Positions 679 through 26,316 of a DNA stretch of 35,651 nt are shown in pieces; position 1 is the first letter of the stretch, and each line of letters begins with the position of its first letter. The stretch comes from a virus: the IMG/VR virus record IMGVR_UViG_3300038701_002120, positions 1 to 35,651 of that record. The stretch is one strand, 5' to 3'. Both the position numbers and the translations under genes were made by a program. The notes under the pieces are model-generated. The model did no database searches. It was not told the DNA's origin and saw only the letters and a list, made by a program, of their open reading frames with translations.

Positions 679-834
679 ATGTTAAACACGGCTGAAAGAA
701 TACTAATACAAGGGAGGTACGATAAAGCTAAGCAGGAAAGATCAAACCTGTTAAAGCTAAAGAAATCTCAAAGAGGAAACAATTTAAAGGAAGTAGAACA
801 AAGACTAACAACGTTAAAAAGATGGCTCAATTAA
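679..834 (+). CDS. Small basic hypothetical protein (51 aa)
   Basis: A 51-residue, Lys/Arg/Gln-rich ORF with predicted helical character (MLNTAERILIQ at the start, LTTLKRWLN at the end). Its last 13 bases overlap the start of the Fur-like regulator gene, which suggests translational coupling. No family is recognised. Its strongly basic, helical composition would fit a nucleic-acid or protein-binding accessory factor, but that is only composition. Confidence 0.55.
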   Translation: MLNTAERILIQGRYDKAKQERSNLLKLKKSQRGNNLKEVEQRLTTLKRWLN

Positions 835-1244
835 TAGAAATCAAAGGAGGAAAAGTTTTCGTAAACATAGAAGGGGAAATGGTAGAAACCAGAGACCCTA
901 AATTAATAGGGTTAGCTATACTAGATTCCTTAGAGGGAATAGAAGATAATATGTACGAGATCGTCTGCGACAAGTTTACAAACCACTTAGAAACTAAGAA
1001 CCTAAGAAAGACCCCTGAGAGATACGCTATTGTAGAGGTAGTATGTAAAAATGAAAAGCCGTTTAGCACAAACAATATTTACGATATGATGCGAGACTCT
1101 TACAGGGTTTCTAAAGCAACCATATTTAACACAATGAGACTGCTATTAGAGTGCGGAATCATAAAGAGAAGTGACATTAGTCAAACAAACGAAATGTTTA
1201 AAACAACATACTTCGAGATAGAATACTTGAAGTTAACAGCGTAA
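822..1244 (+). CDS. Fur-like winged-helix transcriptional regulator
   Basis: This 140-residue protein has an unfamiliar N-terminal part (1-60) followed by a winged helix (about 61-137) that matches the DNA-binding half of Fur/PerR proteins: LRKTPERYAIVEVV (helix 1-2), a turn, IYDMMRDSYRVSKATIFNTMRLLLECGIIKR (recognition helix about 97-110) and the wing MFKTTYFEI. The Fur C-terminal dimerisation domain and His-rich metal site are absent, so it probably does not sense metal in the usual way; the N-terminal segment may serve for dimerisation. It lies directly upstream of the terminase genes, where phages often encode a late regulator. I propose it acts on the 7-1-7 palindromes before the portal and tail-fibre genes. 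Family assignment is fairly sure, role is inference. Confidence 0.75.
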   Translation: MAQLIEIKGGKVFVNIEGEMVETRDPKLIGLAILDSLEGIEDNMYEIVCDKFTNHLETKNLRKTPERYAIVEVVCKNEKPFSTNNIYDMMRDSYRVSKATIFNTMRLLLECGIIKRSDISQTNEMFKTTYFEIEYLKLTA

Positions 1245-1416: not shown

Positions 1417-1599
1417 ATGACTGAATATATTATAGCATTCGTATTAGGGGTATTAGTAGGGTACTACATTCTTAACGTTGTTCAAGGTGTAGGAATAGCT
1501 ATGTTATTAAAATTCCTGAACTCTGGAGACGATGAAAAGAAAAATAAAGACCGATTTAAAGAGCTATTGAAACAGAAAATAGAAGAAAGTAAAAAGTAA
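1417..1599 (+). CDS. Small single-pass membrane protein
   Basis: The 60-residue protein has an N-terminal hydrophobic stretch (about residues 4-32, containing a GVLVGYYIL motif) and a highly charged C-terminal tail rich in Lys and Glu. This is the look of a type of small inner-membrane protein common next to phage terminase genes. Its stop codon overlaps the terS ATG (TAATG), so the two are probably translated together. The function is not known. Confidence 0.65.
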   Translation: MTEYIIAFVLGVLVGYYILNVVQGVGIAMLLKFLNSGDDEKKNKDRFKELLKQKIEESKK

Positions 1600-2057
1600 T
1601 GGCTTATAAACCTGAAGAAATAAAAGAAATGTTTAACGCTATTTGCGACAATATCGCTGACGAAGGTATGTCGTTACGAAAAGCTTTGCAACAACCTAAC
1701 ACCCCAAACGCGAAGACTTTTTACAAATGGCTAGAAGAAAGCGACGATAAAAGCAAACAATACGCGCGCGCGTGCGAGAGGCGTGCCGAATTTTACGCCG
1801 ATGAAATTTTAGAAATTGCAGACACTACCAATGCCGACGCTTGGGTGGGAGACGACGGAGTTACTAGGGTTGACGGTCAAGCTATACAACGTTCTAAACT
1901 TATGGTTGATACTCGTAAGTGGTTAATGTCAAAAATGAACCCTAGAAAATACGGAAACAAAGTTGATCTTACTTCGGACGGAAAACAGATAAAACAAGTA
2001 CCAGCCGTTAAGGTTGAGTTTGTCGATTATTCAGAAGATGAACCAGAAGAGAAATAA
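1599..2057 (+). CDS. terS: Terminase small subunit
   Basis: This 152-residue protein has the arrangement of a phage terminase small subunit. An N-terminal helix-turn-helix region (about 8-50, with NAKTFYKWLEES) would recognise the packaging site. A central helical oligomerisation region follows (about 55-110, RRAEFYADEILEIAD), then the typical motif RKWLMSKMNPRKYGNKVDLT near 107-125. It selects phage DNA and feeds it to the large subunit. The large-subunit gene lies just downstream with only one small ORF between. Length and order are normal. Confidence 0.88.
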   Translation: MAYKPEEIKEMFNAICDNIADEGMSLRKALQQPNTPNAKTFYKWLEESDDKSKQYARACERRAEFYADEILEIADTTNADAWVGDDGVTRVDGQAIQRSKLMVDTRKWLMSKMNPRKYGNKVDLTSDGKQIKQVPAVKVEFVDYSEDEPEEK

Positions 2058-2060
2058 TTT

Positions 2061-2086
2061 GTCTCCACACGGTGAGAGAACGAGAC
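2061..2086 (+). other. Intergenic hairpin after terS
   Basis: CTCCAC and GTGAGAG can form an inner stem with one bulge, and GTCTC/GAGAC can close it outside. There is no T-run. The 22-bp repeat shared with attP begins at its last base. The role is unknown; it could stabilise mRNA or be part of a packaging site. Confidence 0.35.
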
Positions 2087-2107
2087 TAAAATACTGATTA
2101 TCAATTA
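2086..2107 (+). repeat. 22-bp repeat also present beside attP
   Basis: This 22-bp string starts CTAAAATACTG and ends ATTATCAATTA. An identical copy lies at 26295-26316, just outside the attP core, and a partial copy (TGATTATCAGTTA) at about 23385-23397. The core TGATTATCA is near-palindromic, so it may be a protein-binding site. Confidence 0.6.
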
Positions 2108-2118
2108 AATAAAAAATA

Positions 2119-2262
2119 ATGAAAAATTGCAAAATTACAGCAGAAGAGTTCGTAAAAGCGTGTGAAAAAGCAGCGATAGCTTTTAACAGGCTTTCAATCT
2201 CATTAGATCAACTTCAAAAGAAACCAAAGTACGCACTCCCTAAAAGCAAGTATCATAATTAA
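2119..2262 (+). CDS. Small hypothetical protein between terS and terL
   Basis: A 47-residue basic ORF starts MKNCKITAEEFVKACEKA and ends in a Lys-rich tail. Its TAA overlaps the terL ATG by one base (TAATG), the same coupling seen at the terS start. No domain is recognised. Position suggests a packaging accessory or a simple filler ORF. Confidence 0.55.
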   Translation: MKNCKITAEEFVKACEKAAIAFNRLSISLDQLQKKPKYALPKSKYHN

Positions 2263-3608
2263 TGTTAATTCGACCTTCTACATATTCAAAACCACTATTT
2301 ACAGAGAATTTTTACGAGTGTGATATTTGGGGAGGTCGTGGACGTGGCGGTTCTCATAATATGACGCTTTACGCTTTGTTTTCTATGGTAACTTCAACCT
2401 ACTTCAGAGGTTACTTTGTCAGGGCAATTCAAGGAACTGTTAGAGATTCGCTTTGGCAGGATTTTAAAGACCGAATTCAGGAAGTTTCAGAGCTAAACGA
2501 CTACGATTATTTCAAAGACTTTAAGCTAATTGATACCGATATGACAGCCGTTTATCTTCCAAACGGAAACTCTATAAAGTCAAAAGGATTCAAAGCAAGT
2601 TCTAAAAGCAATACGGCAAATATGAAGTCTATTGCTGGTGCAACTCATGTTATGATAGAAGAAACTGAGGAGGTCGGACAAGAAGAGTACAATAAACTAG
2701 CCGATTCACTTAGAACGATTAAAGCTCCTGTTAAAATTATTCGCTCCTGGAATGCGCCACCGAAGGAACATTGGTTAGTAAAAGACTATTACGATTTAAT
2801 GGAAAGCGGAGAGGAAGGATATTACAAGCTTAAATCTAAAAACCTTCCTAATCACTTATCAATATTTGGAACTTATAAAGACAATATTAAGAATCTTGAT
2901 CCTAATACGATTGCAAGGTATGAGCGTTACAAATTAACCCAGCCGAGATACTATTTTAATCAAATTAGAGGTTTAGTTTGTGACGGTGGAGACAGTAAAG
3001 TTTATTACGGCTGGAAGCGTATTAGTACAGAAGAGTTTATTGCTATCGACGGGGTTGAGGCTTACGGTCTTGATTTTGGAGACACAGCGCCAACAGCTTT
3101 AACTCATGTCAAATACAAAGACGGGGCTTTTTACAGGCGAGAACTCATGTACAAGCCTTTGAGGACTTTAAATCTCCAGCATAAAGAATACTTGAAAAAG
3201 ATTAGAGACACTATCCAGAGCCAACCAGAAGACGAACAAAATAACATTTGGTCTAAACATAGAGGATTACTCTCTTACGTGTTTTCTGAAATGGGAGTTG
3301 ATAAAAATATGCTCATGTTTTGCGATCCTGCTCAAAAGGGATTAATCATTGAGTTAAGACAGGCTGGATTCAATGCAATAGGAGCAAAAAAAGACAAGGC
3401 TGCTAATATAAATTTCATTAATAGAGGCTTGAATTATTACACAGAAGACTCTCCTAATATGGAAAATGAATACAACGGATATTATCTCGAAACTGACATT
3501 AACAAAGTTCCAATCGACGGAAAACCAATCAAAGGAAACGATCACTTAATGGAGGCACAAGAATACGGCTGTCGAGGCTTAAAAGACAGCTACGGAATTA
3601 TACTCTAA
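2262..3608 (+). CDS. terL: Terminase large subunit (ATPase-nuclease)
   Basis: The motor that translocates and cuts phage DNA. In the 448 residues the ATPase region has a P-loop position GGRGRGGSHN (24-33), a Walker B MIEETEE (131-137) and a coupling motif SWNAPP (162-167). The RNase H-like nuclease region has acidic residues in GLDFGD (D271), FCDPA (D355) and GNDHLMEA (D427). The canonical P-loop lysine (GKS) is replaced by Gly. I believe a GRGRGGS form recurs in related Bacteroidota terminases, where neighbouring arginines may substitute, so this is probably a lineage trait rather than damage. It belongs to the terminase_3/PBSX-like group. Length is normal. Confidence 0.93.
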   Translation: MLIRPSTYSKPLFTENFYECDIWGGRGRGGSHNMTLYALFSMVTSTYFRGYFVRAIQGTVRDSLWQDFKDRIQEVSELNDYDYFKDFKLIDTDMTAVYLPNGNSIKSKGFKASSKSNTANMKSIAGATHVMIEETEEVGQEEYNKLADSLRTIKAPVKIIRSWNAPPKEHWLVKDYYDLMESGEEGYYKLKSKNLPNHLSIFGTYKDNIKNLDPNTIARYERYKLTQPRYYFNQIRGLVCDGGDSKVYYGWKRISTEEFIAIDGVEAYGLDFGDTAPTALTHVKYKDGAFYRRELMYKPLRTLNLQHKEYLKKIRDTIQSQPEDEQNNIWSKHRGLLSYVFSEMGVDKNMLMFCDPAQKGLIIELRQAGFNAIGAKKDKAANINFINRGLNYYTEDSPNMENEYNGYYLETDINKVPIDGKPIKGNDHLMEAQEYGCRGLKDSYGIIL

Positions 3609-3614
3609 TTTGTC

Positions 3615-3637
3615 TTATTTAGAACGGTTCTAAATAA
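3615..3637. promoter_or_regulatory. 23-bp palindromic operator before the portal gene
   Basis: A perfect 23-bp palindrome has half-sites TTATTTAGAAC and GTTCTAAATAA around a single G. The inner part, TTAGAAC-N-GTTCTAA, has the 7-1-7 form of Fur/PerR-family boxes. The only other full copy is at 18663-18685, differing only in the centre base. In both cases an 11-nt gap separates it from a TAnnTTT -7 box, so it covers the -33 region. It is probably an activator site. Confidence 0.75.
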
Positions 3638-3648
3638 AATTTTAAAAT

Positions 3649-3656
3649 TATATTTG
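3649..3656 (+). promoter_or_regulatory. -7 box of candidate late promoter 1
   Basis: TATATTTG matches the Bacteroidota -7 consensus TAnnTTTG exactly. No TTTG lies at a correct -33 distance; the palindrome occupies that place. The portal ATG begins 18 nt after the box. This suggests an activator-dependent promoter for the head and tail genes. Confidence 0.6.
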
Positions 3657-3674: not shown

Positions 3675-4895
3675 ATGGGTTTTACATTTTCACTTAATTT
3701 AGGTCGTAATGGTTTGAAGAGTCGCTTCAAGAAATCCGTTTACTCTCTTTTTAATGCCACGCCTCAATACAACGACTTCAACGACGAGGCAGACAAAATA
3801 CAGGCTGTACTTACCAATCCAGCAGCTTTAAAAGTATTTGCTCTACAATGCGACTTATTTTCGTTAGCTACTATTCAGGTTAAAAAAGACGATAAAATTG
3901 TCGAAAACGATTCTGTTTTAAAGCTTTTTGAAAACCCTAACCCTTTTCAATCTCAAAGGCAATTCCTTTGGGATTTCATGTTTTGGAATATGTTAGGTAA
4001 CGCCGTTTTATACATTAAATCGGGGAATGTAGATCGAGAAAATAACATGATGTATTTCTTAGATACGTCTAGGCTTATCTTTCCAGGAAAACTAAAGAAG
4101 AAGATAGGTAGGTTAATTTTATCTAAGCAAAGTCTTAGAGAAATTGAAGACGAGAAAGTTGAATACAAAAACGAAGGAGGTAAATCTAACTTCTTCACGA
4201 TTAAAGAACTCTTATTTGTTTCCGATTTAACTAATAGTACGGGAAACTGGTTCAAAGGCACTTCAAGACTCGACGCTCTTTACAAGATAATAGCCAACTC
4301 TGAAGCTGGTATTGATAGTAAAAACATTAACGCTAGGTATTTAGGAAAATATATCGTTAACGGAAAGGTAGACGAGAAAAACGTCAATCTTCCAATGATG
4401 AAAAATGAAGAGAAAAAGGAGATTGAAGACCGCGTTGACGGAGACAAAAAGGTTTTTGCAGTTACTTCTCCAGTAACAGTACAAAGGTTTATCGAGCAAT
4501 CTCAAGTTTTAGAAAACCTAGACAAGAGTTATTTAGCTGACTATTACAAAATAGGAAAAATGTACGGGATTCCTAGAGACGTTCTTGAGGCTTACACAAG
4601 TAGTACTTATGAGAATCAAGAAAAAGCAAGAGGGTCGCACGTAAGCTACACCCTTTCGCCTAAAGGTTGTGATTTAGGAGACAGTATAGCTAAAAGGCTT
4701 GACTATCAAGAAAAGAAAATCTCTCTTGATTGGTCTCACCTTCCTTTTATGCAAGTATTTAAGAAGGATGAAGCTAAAGTAAATGAAACTAACGCTAAGT
4801 CTTTAGAAAAACTGATTAAAGCAGGAGTTACGCCTGAGAGCGCAGCATTAGCGCTGGGAATGGATGTAGAATTTAAAAAGAAGGAAAATGAATAA
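3675..4895 (+). CDS. Portal protein (HK97-like)
   Basis: This 406-residue protein would form the dodecameric portal ring at the capsid vertex through which DNA enters and leaves. It follows terL and precedes the protease and capsid genes, the standard order. Features typical of the HK97-type portal family are the N-terminal basic segment, LFENPNPFQSQRQFLWDFMF (about 85-105), the wing segment with NAVLYIKSGN, and the stem/crown stretch QVLENLDKSYLADYYKIGKM leading to GIPRDVLEAYTSSTYENQEK. The C-terminus is charged. It has its own candidate late promoter immediately upstream, unlike the terminase genes. Confidence 0.88.
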   Translation: MGFTFSLNLGRNGLKSRFKKSVYSLFNATPQYNDFNDEADKIQAVLTNPAALKVFALQCDLFSLATIQVKKDDKIVENDSVLKLFENPNPFQSQRQFLWDFMFWNMLGNAVLYIKSGNVDRENNMMYFLDTSRLIFPGKLKKKIGRLILSKQSLREIEDEKVEYKNEGGKSNFFTIKELLFVSDLTNSTGNWFKGTSRLDALYKIIANSEAGIDSKNINARYLGKYIVNGKVDEKNVNLPMMKNEEKKEIEDRVDGDKKVFAVTSPVTVQRFIEQSQVLENLDKSYLADYYKIGKMYGIPRDVLEAYTSSTYENQEKARGSHVSYTLSPKGCDLGDSIAKRLDYQEKKISLDWSHLPFMQVFKKDEAKVNETNAKSLEKLIKAGVTPESAALALGMDVEFKKKENE

Positions 4896-18662: not shown

Positions 18663-18685
18663 TTATTTAGAACTGTTCTAAATAA
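18663..18685. promoter_or_regulatory. 23-bp palindromic operator before the tail fibre gene
   Basis: The same palindrome as that before the portal gene, with half-sites TTATTTAGAAC and GTTCTAAATAA around a T. Eleven nt separate it from TATTTTTA, the same spacing as at the other copy. It lies between divergent genes. Confidence 0.75.
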
Positions 18686-18696
18686 TAATATTTTAC

Positions 18697-18704
18697 TATT
18701 TTTA
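18697..18704 (+). promoter_or_regulatory. -7-like box of candidate late promoter 2
   Basis: TATTTTTA matches TAnnTTTG except for its last base. It stands at the same distance from the palindrome centre (23 nt) as the perfect -7 box at 3649. The tail-fibre ATG follows 14 nt later. On its own it would be unconvincing in AT-rich DNA; the shared geometry is the evidence. Confidence 0.5.
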
Positions 18705-18718
18705 TAAAAAACATACTT

Positions 18719-21286
18719 ATGCCTACAACAGAAGAAAGATTAGTAGCCTTAGAATCAATCCATAGTGAATCTCAATCGGCAGAAGAGATTCAAGAGGTTG
18801 CTAATTATGACATAAATGATTATCACTTAATCTTTGATCCTGATACAAATAAAATACTAAAGTTAAAGGGGGCAATGATGCCTATGGGTTCGCACAAGCC
18901 CTACTCAACAGTTGATAGTTTGCCTGATCCTACTGACCCAAATTCATCATTATTTGTAGCTCTTGTTCATAGCGATCCAAACCCAGTAACTGAAGCAACA
19001 GGAAATGGTTATTATGTTGTTGAAAATGATTCTTGGAAAAACAAAGGGTCACAGCTAGAAAAAAGTATAAGTAGTTTAAATACAACTAAAGGAGTTAGTG
19101 GTAGTGCGGTTTACAATTTTTTTAATAATAAGTGTTTTGTTAATGTATCAGGTTTAAGTAGCGAAGAAGAAATAATACAAAACGCTATTTTTAAAGCTGA
19201 AATATGGGGGGAAAATGTAGACCCTGAAAACGAGGAGTATTACTTGTCTCGTATTGCTTTAAATAGAGATACTTATAATGATAATTATTTCCAATTAAAA
19301 AGAACGGACGGCACTCTAATTGCTTTCAGTCAATGGGATTACTCCTCAGAAGATACAGGGGTAAAAACTTATGAAGTAAACAACTACTTACAAGGTTATA
19401 ATTTCAAGTTCATAATTAATTGGGATTTAATTCCTCATGGAACTAACTATACTTCAGGAAGCTTATCGAATATGAAACTTGACCGTTTAAAATGTCATAT
19501 TGATGTTAATAAAGGACTAGATGATTTACCATTGCTCAATCTTCAAAATTATCAAAATAAAGTATTTAAACGATTTGATAATATAAACTACACTGACGAG
19601 GAAATTTCAATTAGAAATGCGGTATTGAATGTTGAAGTGTGGGGTAAAAATGTGGCATCTACAGATACCTTTTATTTAGAAAGAATCGGTTACGACAGAA
19701 CTGGTTCTAATGATGTTTATTTTTATGTTAAAAAGTCTGATGAAACAGTAATAGCAGTTTATCAAAAAGCCAAATCCAATGATGACGAGGGGGTAACAAA
19801 ATATGTGGTAAATGAGTATTTAGAGGGGTACAATGTTAGTATCGTTTTGAACTGGTCGTTTATACCAAATGGAACTGACTATGTTAACGGAGAGGCTGAT
19901 ACTATGTTATTTGACAATAGTAATATCTATATCAATGCAGTTAAAAAAGAGTCTGTTATTTCTGATAACAAAGTAATCCGAAAAGGCGATAAGGTTTACA
20001 TCATGTCTAAATGGAATAATGAACACGATTTATTAATCACCTTTAACAAATGCATGTTCAATGATCTGATGACGTTTAGCGGGGTATCTCTTATTGAAAA
20101 TACAGATAGCAACATCATTGAACAAATAGATAAAGTTCCCGACATTGTTTTAAACGAAGTAGATTCGGACAACATCGGTCCATATATTATAACAGGAGTT
20201 TCAAGCTGGGTTGGTGGCAATCACGGCTATGAGGGAGATTTTACAAACCTATCATCAAACTATACGGGGGGCGATTCAACTTTAAACGTTGCTGACGGAA
20301 CAAAGTTTGTAACAACGGGAGGCTGGGCAAGAACAGACGGAAATAATGGGTTTTTAAGATTTCAGTATTCAGGAGTTAGCGGAAATCAATTAACGGGTGT
20401 TTCGGGTTTGAATGTAGACCTGATAACATCTGACCAAGTACAAGTTTATCATCGAACAGCAGAAACCGAAGAGTTTGAGTTTTACGTTAATGGCGAAATC
20501 TTGCCTGAAAACATAATGTTACCAGCAGATGAATTAATAGTAACGGTAAAAAATAAAATACTTGATAGTTCAACTTTAAATTTTGCTAATGGAAACATTG
20601 ACACGGCATTATATGAAAATGTAATGTACAGAATTTCAAAAGGAAATATTGAGGTATTAATGGAACATGAATTCATTAAAGATATTTCAATAACTGTTTA
20701 TTATGGTATGCAATTACTTTCTGCCTCATGGCAACAAAAAGTTTATCAAGCAAACAGTCAAAATACTGCAATACAAGCAAAAGGCAACTATCCTAAAAGT
20801 GGAGACCCGTTTACTTTTCAGTCAGATAAAATGATAATTGCAAAATCTAATGACATTTATAATTGTGCGATGTGGTTTGACCCAAATTGTGGGTACTCAC
20901 AAAACAAAGCTAACTATTTAGATTCTGGAGACTATTTGTGGAATGGAGAGGCTAATGGAAAATTTTATCACGGAACTATACTAAAAGCTACATCATTTAT
21001 AGCAGGTCAAAAAGAATGGTGGCGAGGAGTTTACACTTGGTTTCCTAATCCTTTAAACATAGTTGATGCCTCATACGCTTATGAAATGAGATTGGCAGGA
21101 AGAAAGTATTTATGTATAGATTTTCATTCTGCTGGAAATGATAATATCCCAACAATAAAAGAACTTGGTAAAGAAGTAGAAGTTGTTAGAGAAGATTCTA
21201 CGTTGACTTCAGAAAGTGACATTATGCCTAATGGTTTAAATATAGTGGCTTCTGGATATGGAAGTGGATTATATAAAGTTATATAA
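18719..21286 (+). CDS. Tail fibre / receptor-binding protein with internal duplication
   Basis: An 855-residue protein. The N-terminus (1-120) probably attaches to the tail, with KLKGAMMPMGSHKPYSTVDS and a strand pair GNGYYVVENDSWKNKG. Two similar units of about 130 residues follow (about 137-266 and 280-410). Both contain an EI(W)G/EVWG-type strand, a YYLSRI or FYLERI strand, then YEVNNYLQGYN / YVVNEYLEGYN and NWDLIPHGTNY / NWSFIPNGTDY. They look like duplicated beta-sandwich carbohydrate-binding domains. The C-terminal half (about 480-855) is rich in Gly, Asn and aromatic residues and may contact the receptor. The gene has its own candidate late promoter. Confidence 0.72.
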   Translation: MPTTEERLVALESIHSESQSAEEIQEVANYDINDYHLIFDPDTNKILKLKGAMMPMGSHKPYSTVDSLPDPTDPNSSLFVALVHSDPNPVTEATGNGYYVVENDSWKNKGSQLEKSISSLNTTKGVSGSAVYNFFNNKCFVNVSGLSSEEEIIQNAIFKAEIWGENVDPENEEYYLSRIALNRDTYNDNYFQLKRTDGTLIAFSQWDYSSEDTGVKTYEVNNYLQGYNFKFIINWDLIPHGTNYTSGSLSNMKLDRLKCHIDVNKGLDDLPLLNLQNYQNKVFKRFDNINYTDEEISIRNAVLNVEVWGKNVASTDTFYLERIGYDRTGSNDVYFYVKKSDETVIAVYQKAKSNDDEGVTKYVVNEYLEGYNVSIVLNWSFIPNGTDYVNGEADTMLFDNSNIYINAVKKESVISDNKVIRKGDKVYIMSKWNNEHDLLITFNKCMFNDLMTFSGVSLIENTDSNIIEQIDKVPDIVLNEVDSDNIGPYIITGVSSWVGGNHGYEGDFTNLSSNYTGGDSTLNVADGTKFVTTGGWARTDGNNGFLRFQYSGVSGNQLTGVSGLNVDLITSDQVQVYHRTAETEEFEFYVNGEILPENIMLPADELIVTVKNKILDSSTLNFANGNIDTALYENVMYRISKGNIEVLMEHEFIKDISITVYYGMQLLSASWQQKVYQANSQNTAIQAKGNYPKSGDPFTFQSDKMIIAKSNDIYNCAMWFDPNCGYSQNKANYLDSGDYLWNGEANGKFYHGTILKATSFIAGQKEWWRGVYTWFPNPLNIVDASYAYEMRLAGRKYLCIDFHSAGNDNIPTIKELGKEVEVVREDSTLTSESDIMPNGLNIVASGYGSGLYKVI

Positions 21287-23333: not shown

Positions 23334-23445
23334 TTTAATAAACCAATCGCGTCCTAAACGTTTTAGACTTTAGATTTTCATAGTTGATTATCAGTTATTT
23401 ACAATTAAAAATGATCTTTTTCAAAAACAAACCCCTAATATTCTT

Positions 23446-23582
23446 TAAAATTACTGTTAGCTGTCCTAAACGTTTATAGCTTACTATTTAATGGATTTTA
23501 CAGCCTATAACTTGTGTTTATTGAAAAGAATCGTGTTCTATTTTTAAATTAATCGTTCTAAAATTACTGATGCTGTCCTAAA
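23446..23582 (+). repeat. Direct repeat pair in the non-coding region
   Basis: Copies at 23446-23470 and 23559-23582 share TAAAATTACTG and GCTGTCCTAAA, separated by 3 and 2 bases. Each ends in the GTCCTAAA element. Confidence 0.7.
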
Positions 23583-23610
23583 TAATTTTTCAAAATCATT
23601 TATTTAGGAC
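23575..23610. repeat. 11-bp inverted repeat related to the late operator
   Basis: GTCCTAAATAA and TTATTTAGGAC are separated by 14 nt. Each half differs by one base from the half-site of the two late palindromes, but the halves face outward with a longer spacer. No T-run follows, so it is unlikely to be a terminator. Confidence 0.6.
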
Positions 23611-23639
23611 GGGATTGTTAATAAACCTATGTTAATTTC

Positions 23640-23675
23640 TGCGGAAATACGCACTTTAAAGTGCGGAAATACGCA
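23640..23675. promoter_or_regulatory. Twin operator-like dyads upstream of the cargo operon
   Basis: Two identical dyads TGCG-GAAATA-CGCA lie 22 bp apart. Between them is a perfect 14-bp palindrome GCACTTTAAAGTGC. The 10-mer AAATACGCAC found here also occurs, on the opposite strand, at 27546-27555 in the repressor-early gene spacer, so the phage repressor may bind both places. Confidence 0.6.
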
Positions 23676-23712
23676 TGGCTATTTAGTTTTTTTAACGTTC
23701 TTTTGTGTAAAT

Positions 23713-23803
23713 TTTAAGGATTAAAATTTAAAATTCAAGTACAATTACCTGCTTTATTTGGCTATTTTTTTGTAATTTGATGGTTTATTTTTTAATCCTT
23801 AAA
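23713..23803. repeat. 14-bp inverted repeat flanking the cargo-operon leader
   Basis: TTTAAGGATTAAAA (23713-23726) and TTTTAATCCTTAAA (23790-23803) are perfect inverted copies, 63 bp apart. The second arm ends 10 bases before the ATG at 23814. A TAATTTG -7-like string lies between. In RNA the pair could close a long stem-loop over the leader. Confidence 0.6.
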
Positions 23804-23813
23804 TCTTAAAATT

Positions 23814-23933
23814 ATGCAAGAAGAAATTTTAGAAAAAATGTATTTAATGCCAGACCCAGACGACGACGGAACTACTGATCCAGACGAAGAAGAGACTGGA
23901 GGAGAAAGCGGAGTGACTGGTGGCGGCAACTAA
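23814..23933 (+). CDS. Tiny acidic Gly-rich peptide, first gene of cargo operon
   Basis: A 39-residue ORF (starts MQEEILEKMY) is extremely acidic, with PDPDDDGTTDPDEEE in the middle and a Gly-rich end GVTGGGN. It has a clear leader with inverted repeats in front and overlaps the following membrane-protein gene by 14 bases. It could be a leader peptide for translational coupling, or a functional small partner of the membrane protein. It resembles no family I know. The Asp/Gly pattern is loosely like a calcium loop. Confidence 0.5.
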   Translation: MQEEILEKMYLMPDPDDDGTTDPDEEETGGESGVTGGGN

Positions 23934-26227: not shown

Positions 26228-26270
26228 TAGCGGGAACTGGACTCGAACCAGTGACCTTCGGGTTATGAGG
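26228..26270 (-). other. attP: attP core: 3' half of a tRNA-Met(CAU) gene
   Basis: Read on the minus strand this is a tRNA 3' half: CTCATAA anticodon loop (anticodon CAT), CCCGA half-stem, AGGTC variable loop, T arm ACTGG-TTCGAGT-CCAGT, and acceptor TCCCGCT plus A. The 5' half is absent. Phages that integrate in tRNA genes carry such a fragment to restore the gene on insertion, so the host site is a tRNA-Met gene. Confidence 0.88.
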
Positions 26271-26294
26271 CAGAAATAAATCTACAACCCTACT

Positions 26295-26316
26295 CTAAAA
26301 TACTGATTATCAATTA
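26295..26316 (+). repeat. 22-bp repeat beside attP (second copy)
   Basis: Identical to the 22-bp string at 2086-2107 between terS and the small ORF before terL. It lies between the attP core and the second pair of arm sites and may bind a DNA-bending or regulatory protein. Confidence 0.6.

Follow-up and report, generated by a model that had tools for sequence, protein, structure and literature searches.

A Fur-derived winged-helix protein without a metal domain and host-type Fur boxes at late promoters of flavobacterial phages

Directly ahead of its terminase genes, the virus record analysed here (35,651 bases, the whole of which we call the window) carries an open reading frame, ORF 822-1244, for which a first-pass annotation had proposed a late-gene switch built on the Fur fold: a Fur-like regulator acting on palindromes that precede late genes. 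The locus raises the question of what this protein is, what the palindromes are, and whether the two belong together.

A Fur-derived winged helix joined to a small domain

ORF 822-1244 matches the Pfam FUR model at residues 59-128 (E 1.6e-9; 38.4 bits, cut-off 23.1). The match covers positions 2-73 of the 121-position model, and little sequence is left after the wing. PDB Fur/PerR chains align to residues 51-132, and Foldseek with the modelled winged helix returned PerR/Fur structures on top (best E 7.4e-6), so that by both Pfam and Foldseek scores the winged helix is of the Fur family. The C-terminal dimerisation domain with its metal sites is absent from the 140 aa, and the N-terminal part had no match in Pfam, PHROG or PDB searches. 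ORF 822-1244 thus encodes a Fur-derived winged helix joined to a small domain that replaces the metal/dimerisation domain, which bears out the earlier description of a Fur DNA-binding half lacking the C-terminal sensor/dimerisation domain and preceded by an N-terminal domain of no known kind. Since the protein has no metal domain, it should bind DNA without sensing iron.

The winged helix is close to that of a Flavobacterium host Fur (151 aa), with 37 of 91 residues identical (41%; E 1e-24) and a near-identical recognition helix (YRVSKATIFNTMRLLLEC in the window, YRVSRATLYNTIELLLDC in the host). An AlphaFold model of the 140-aa protein (14 sequences; mean pLDDT 82, pTM 0.61) has three short strands (E5-8, E11-16, E19-22), a long helix (H26-58) and then the winged helix.

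A peptide-pattern search of IMG/VR for relatives of the whole 140-aa protein found none. Polaribacter phages Freya and Danklef carry a Fur-like protein directly before TerS and TerL; in Freya it consists of the same two domains in the opposite order, with 23 of 32 small-domain residues identical and the winged helix 35% identical over 82 aa. The place before the terminase genes, which had been read correctly from the window, is therefore kept in both phages. The words 'ferric' and 'regulator' do not occur in the main text of the paper on the isolation of Freya and Danklef (PMC8776804). A third fusion, in the window order and with a weak FUR match, lies on IMG/VR contig L037 (G009).

Around the gene, the gap between regulator and TerS contains a stable hairpin region (1249-1330; arms GAAGCCTC/GAGGCTTC) with a z-score of -3.0, 1 of 200 shuffles folding as well; in Freya, the equivalent gap is scarcely more stable than its shuffles. 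Upstream of the regulator lies a tRNA-like gene (444-529; Rfam tRNA, 47.3 bits), whose anticodon ARAGORN left undetermined.

Table 1. Coordinates of the regulator gene, its domains and the late-promoter elements in the window.
Feature	Position	Strand	Basis
Fur-derived regulator gene	822..1244	+	open frame, 140 aa; Pfam FUR; place before TerS/TerL as in Freya/Danklef
Small N-terminal domain, residues 5-38	834..935	+	23/32 identity to Freya residues 102-133; profile hits in 17 palindrome phages
Fur-type winged helix, residues 46-135	957..1226	+	host Fur identity; Foldseek PerR/Fur top hits
TerS (1599-2057) and TerL (2262-3608)	1599..3608	+	between regulator and first Fur box
Palindrome 1, 23 bp, late promoter 1 (portal)	3615..3637	.	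TTATTTAGAACGGTTCTAAATAA; perfect 11-1-11
-7 box TATATTTG	3649..3656	+	12 nt past 21-mer core
Portal gene, first after late promoter 1	3675..4895	+	PHROG 12 portal, E 0.00059
Palindrome 2, 23 bp, late promoter 2 (fibre)	18663..18685	.	TTATTTAGAACTGTTCTAAATAA; perfect 11-1-11
-7-like box TATTTTTA, one letter off TANNTTTG	18697..18704	+	12 nt past core
855-aa gene after late promoter 2	18719..21286	+	no Pfam match; fibre-like by position only

Fur boxes at the place of the -33 element

The window contains only two perfect 11-1-11 palindromes (TTATTTAGAACnGTTCTAAATAA), compared with a mean of 0.045 and a maximum of 1 in 200 dinucleotide shuffles. The first-pass annotation was right that two palindromes precede late genes but had taken them to be of 7-1-7 length. 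Both occupy the place expected for a -33 element, 12 nt before a -7 box, and the locus combines two features of the late-activator class, a gene near the early/late boundary and conserved late-promoter sites.

The palindromes are of the flavobacterial Fur-box type. Work on Riemerella anatipestifer predicted ATTTAGAATTATTCTAAAT as the Fur box, showed gel shifts of promoters with such sites by purified Fur, and described Fur as acting negatively (PMC5609570). This consensus lies within the phage core TATTTAGAATnATTCTAAATA, the core pattern being ATTTAGAAYnRTTCTAAAT, and the window boxes differ from ATTTAGAATTATTCTAAAT only in having C/G for T/A beside the central base (GAACnGTTC in the window, GAATnATTC in the host). 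In Freya and Danklef, TTATTTAGAATnATTCTAAATAA stands before gp24 and before the fibre-like gene, and a one-mismatch copy stands before the portal gene. The identity of the base pair beside the centre showed no clear covariation with the recognition helix, and one phage without a Fur helix (G004) has one box of each centre type (C/G and T/A).

Three Flavobacterium genomes hold 29-39 relaxed sites each, against 8-11 for a control pattern. From our reading of the flanking ORFs, host sites lie between hemA and a gene for an AraC-type regulator in four genomes, and others precede ferredoxin reductase, sdhC and a siderophore-type decarboxylase. We rejected the idea that the palindrome itself is a common host site, because the perfect 21-mer is found in only 5 of 150 Flavobacterium genomes, once in each and in some cases in prophages, although near-matches are enriched. 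The palindrome being a Fur box of the host type, it may be bound by host Fur wherever it occurs.

The geometry seen in the window recurs among non-redundant palindrome sites from an IMG/VR scan, the counts of which are lower bounds. Among the matches listed, which comprise 242 sides, TANNTTTG peaks 13 nt after the 21-mer (at least 24 sides; at least 34 for the range 12-15 nt), and a smaller class lies 2-6 nt away. When TANNTTTA was also accepted on the mapped contigs, 22 boxes were found at 13 nt, 7 at 12 nt and 7 at 15 nt. The spacing is mostly 12-15 nt both in related phages and in an unrelated group, and a -33 TTTG cannot be present at this distance because the box fills its place. Each phage has two or three boxes, placed close to where the head genes begin and, ~14-15 kb further on, before a fibre gene, an arrangement that recurs across the group. 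Palindrome loci with no -7 box at the right distance (at least 79 of 122 among the matches listed) were kept as a separate class.

Several further observations concern the sites and their surroundings. Small peaks of -7 boxes also occur 33-34 and 43-45 nt after the palindrome. Loci with a palindrome and no -7 box include L076, L083, L099, L032, L043, L049, L050, L061, L086 and L100, some of which have close palindrome pairs 61 or 128 bp apart. At L006, L007 and L008 the palindrome lies in a common non-coding region of another phage type, and searches of these three for the regulator and for FUR gave no match. Within the window, the long non-coding stretch at 23334-23830 contains two copies each of GTCCTAAACGTTT and TGCGGAAATACGCA and two TTATTTAGGAC arms that resemble a Fur-box arm and face apart. 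At 26228-26300, on the minus strand, a tRNA 3' half recognised by eye (CTCATAACCCGAAGGTCACTGGTTCGAGTCC) adjoins the integrase gene and is likely attP.

Co-occurrence of protein, small domain and palindrome

If protein and palindrome formed one switch, as had been proposed, phages with the palindrome should carry the protein. Most do not: a search of 22 records for FUR gave matches only in Freya, Danklef and G009, the sole match in G004 being weak and inside a repressor-like ORF. The link between regulator and site is therefore looser than had been thought. Of the proposed switch, the Fur-box match and the placement at late promoters stand, the boxes having a fixed spacing to a -7 box, whereas co-occurrence of the Fur-like protein with the palindrome does not. 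The pattern that the first-pass annotation had named as a refutation, a consistent lack of the protein in phages with the palindrome, is largely what is seen.

In this phage group it is the small domain, not the Fur helix, that co-occurs with the palindrome. Among the matches listed, the domain is present in 17 of 34 records that have the palindrome at promoter geometry and in none of 11 without that geometry, absences being weak evidence because some records are fragments. Profile searches showed that the domain, of ~45 aa, is elsewhere mostly a free-standing micro-protein of 45-75 aa near the terminase genes, some ORFs being longer and bearing other tails; it is also present in three Flavobacterium genomes with prophages. 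Fusion to the Fur helix has occurred in both orders, that of the window and G009 and that of Freya and Danklef. When proteins of 15 contigs were clustered by BLAST linkage, six families, apparently of tail genes, were found in 13 contigs and the small domain came next with 12; divergent copies in G014 and G031 were found by profile. The small domain is the one non-structural family among those common to nearly all 13 group members. Since the clustering shows shared gene families, common descent confounds the association between small domain and palindrome.

Boxes also occur outside this group. In a second group (G022, G033 and G037) they precede phrog_6547 portal genes and other structural-looking genes, and in G018 a box precedes a structural-looking gene. 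Profile searches of these four whole records found neither the small domain nor FUR; gene context in G018, G021 and G022 comes from part of each record, and the profile searches covered the whole of it. Boxes can therefore exist without the protein, since these unrelated phages have them with neither helix nor small domain.

A short resemblance, GEMKETTDP to GEVIEFCDP in Freya, together with a common strand-strand-DP-helix layout, suggested that the small domain might be a remnant of the Fur dimerisation domain or a displaced copy of it. We set this candidate aside for now as not supported: hhalign gave E values of 0.08-0.33 over only 7-11 columns, and real Fur domains scored no better than shuffles in the profile comparison. 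With a stand-alone model of the domain, Foldseek returned nothing under E 1.7, and the best VIA-align Z was 4.1, below the tool's meaningful level. AbrB/MazE-like chains are among the weak Foldseek rows and have no Pfam support. Beside the small domain and before TerL, many phages encode a conserved basic protein of 72-86 aa (L208:10171-10398 and equivalents; pattern LIQEKKSKLSRSQR..V...I.HLISKGHI).

Accounts of the late switch and comparison with known systems

Most simply, the late promoters would need a factor that recognises the Fur box. In the window this factor can be the phage protein; for most relatives the only candidates are host Fur and some unrecognised protein. As an explanation of the whole, we favour with moderate confidence an iron-blind, Fur-derived late regulator working on host-type boxes, probably as an activator, with relatives acting through host Fur. 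The phage protein would bind the two boxes, which would stand in for the -33 elements of the portal and fibre promoters, and would most likely activate late, helping RNA polymerase at the -7 box 12 nt downstream. Group members that encode no such winged helix probably have these boxes read by host Fur, and the free-standing small domain may be a partner, with either Fur or RNA polymerase as its target. The constant distance to the -7 box and the lack of a -33 element speak for activation over repression. However, a repressor could sit at the same promoter position. Elements at -33 are weak in this phylum, and the fixed spacing within the group may come in part from common descent. The centre of the window boxes, GAACnGTTC where the host has GAATnATTC, also counts against this explanation.

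Repression is the core of the strongest alternative, which we consider rather unlikely though deserving of attention. Here host Fur with iron would be the main factor and would repress the late promoters, the phage protein being an iron-blind competitor that relieves repression by displacing Fur, and late genes would respond either to iron status or to replicating phage genomes titrating Fur away. This would suit boxes that match the host Fur consensus, overlap the core promoter, and occur both in phages without a phage Fur and in an unrelated phage group, as well as the description of Fur as a negative regulator (PMC5609570). Activation is nevertheless the better fit to a fixed distance of 12-15 nt with no -33 element, and a perfect symmetry of 21-29 bp exceeds what simple repression needs.

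We regard as improbable a reading in which the small domain itself binds the box or directs the promoter and the Fur helix is an accessory that a few phages have added. The small domain, as the non-structural family accompanying the boxes in the group, encoded as micro-proteins of 45-75 aa in the terminase region, would be well placed for this role, but it shows no DNA-binding signature, has neither a Pfam nor a PDB relative and gave no convincing fold match, and boxes are also found in phages that lack it. Least credible is that the palindromes are unrelated to Fur and serve some other factor, the Fur-like protein doing something else, such as damping host iron regulation: the lack of strict co-occurrence of protein and box would agree with this, but the match to the 19-bp consensus of a gel-shift-backed flavobacterial Fur box and the near-identity of the recognition helix to that of host Fur speak against it.

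Taken together, the data suggest that late expression in these flavobacterial phages runs through a host iron-regulator site. More tentatively, it is possible, if short of probable, that unrelated flavobacterial phage lineages converged on the host Fur box, with host Fur as late factor, that one group added a micro-protein partner, and that a few phages fused this partner to a captured, iron-blind Fur helix, escaping host iron status. If our favoured explanation of an iron-blind late regulator on host-type boxes is true, virion gene expression in marine and freshwater flavobacterial phages would be wired to the host iron-regulator site, which would link iron status to phage production; there would be a testable answer to how late genes are switched in phages whose hosts use -33/-7 promoters; and an uncharacterised micro-protein family would be tied to the late switch. 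Among the titles and abstracts listed in searches of open-access literature, none reports Fur boxes at late virion-gene promoters.

The closest counterparts are the proteins of Freya and Danklef (Forsetiviridae), annotated as 'Ferric uptake regulator family protein', which share with the window the two domains, the place before TerS/TerL and boxes before portal and fibre-like genes, and differ in the reversed domain order, the GAATnATTC boxes and the third site before gp24. Flavobacterial host Fur (PF01475) has a 41% identical winged helix and the same kind of DNA box; unlike it, the window protein has no metal/dimerisation domain and carries a small N-terminal domain instead. The Shiga toxin 1 promoter, which is under host Fur, is likewise phage-borne with a host Fur box, but it serves a cargo gene, whereas in the window and many other phages the boxes lie at promoters of virion structural operons. 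P2 Ogr and Mu C are phage late activators, small regulators that act on late promoters without a full core element, as we think is the case here; the window protein, for which activation is putative, differs from both in having a Fur-type winged helix and a host-type operator.
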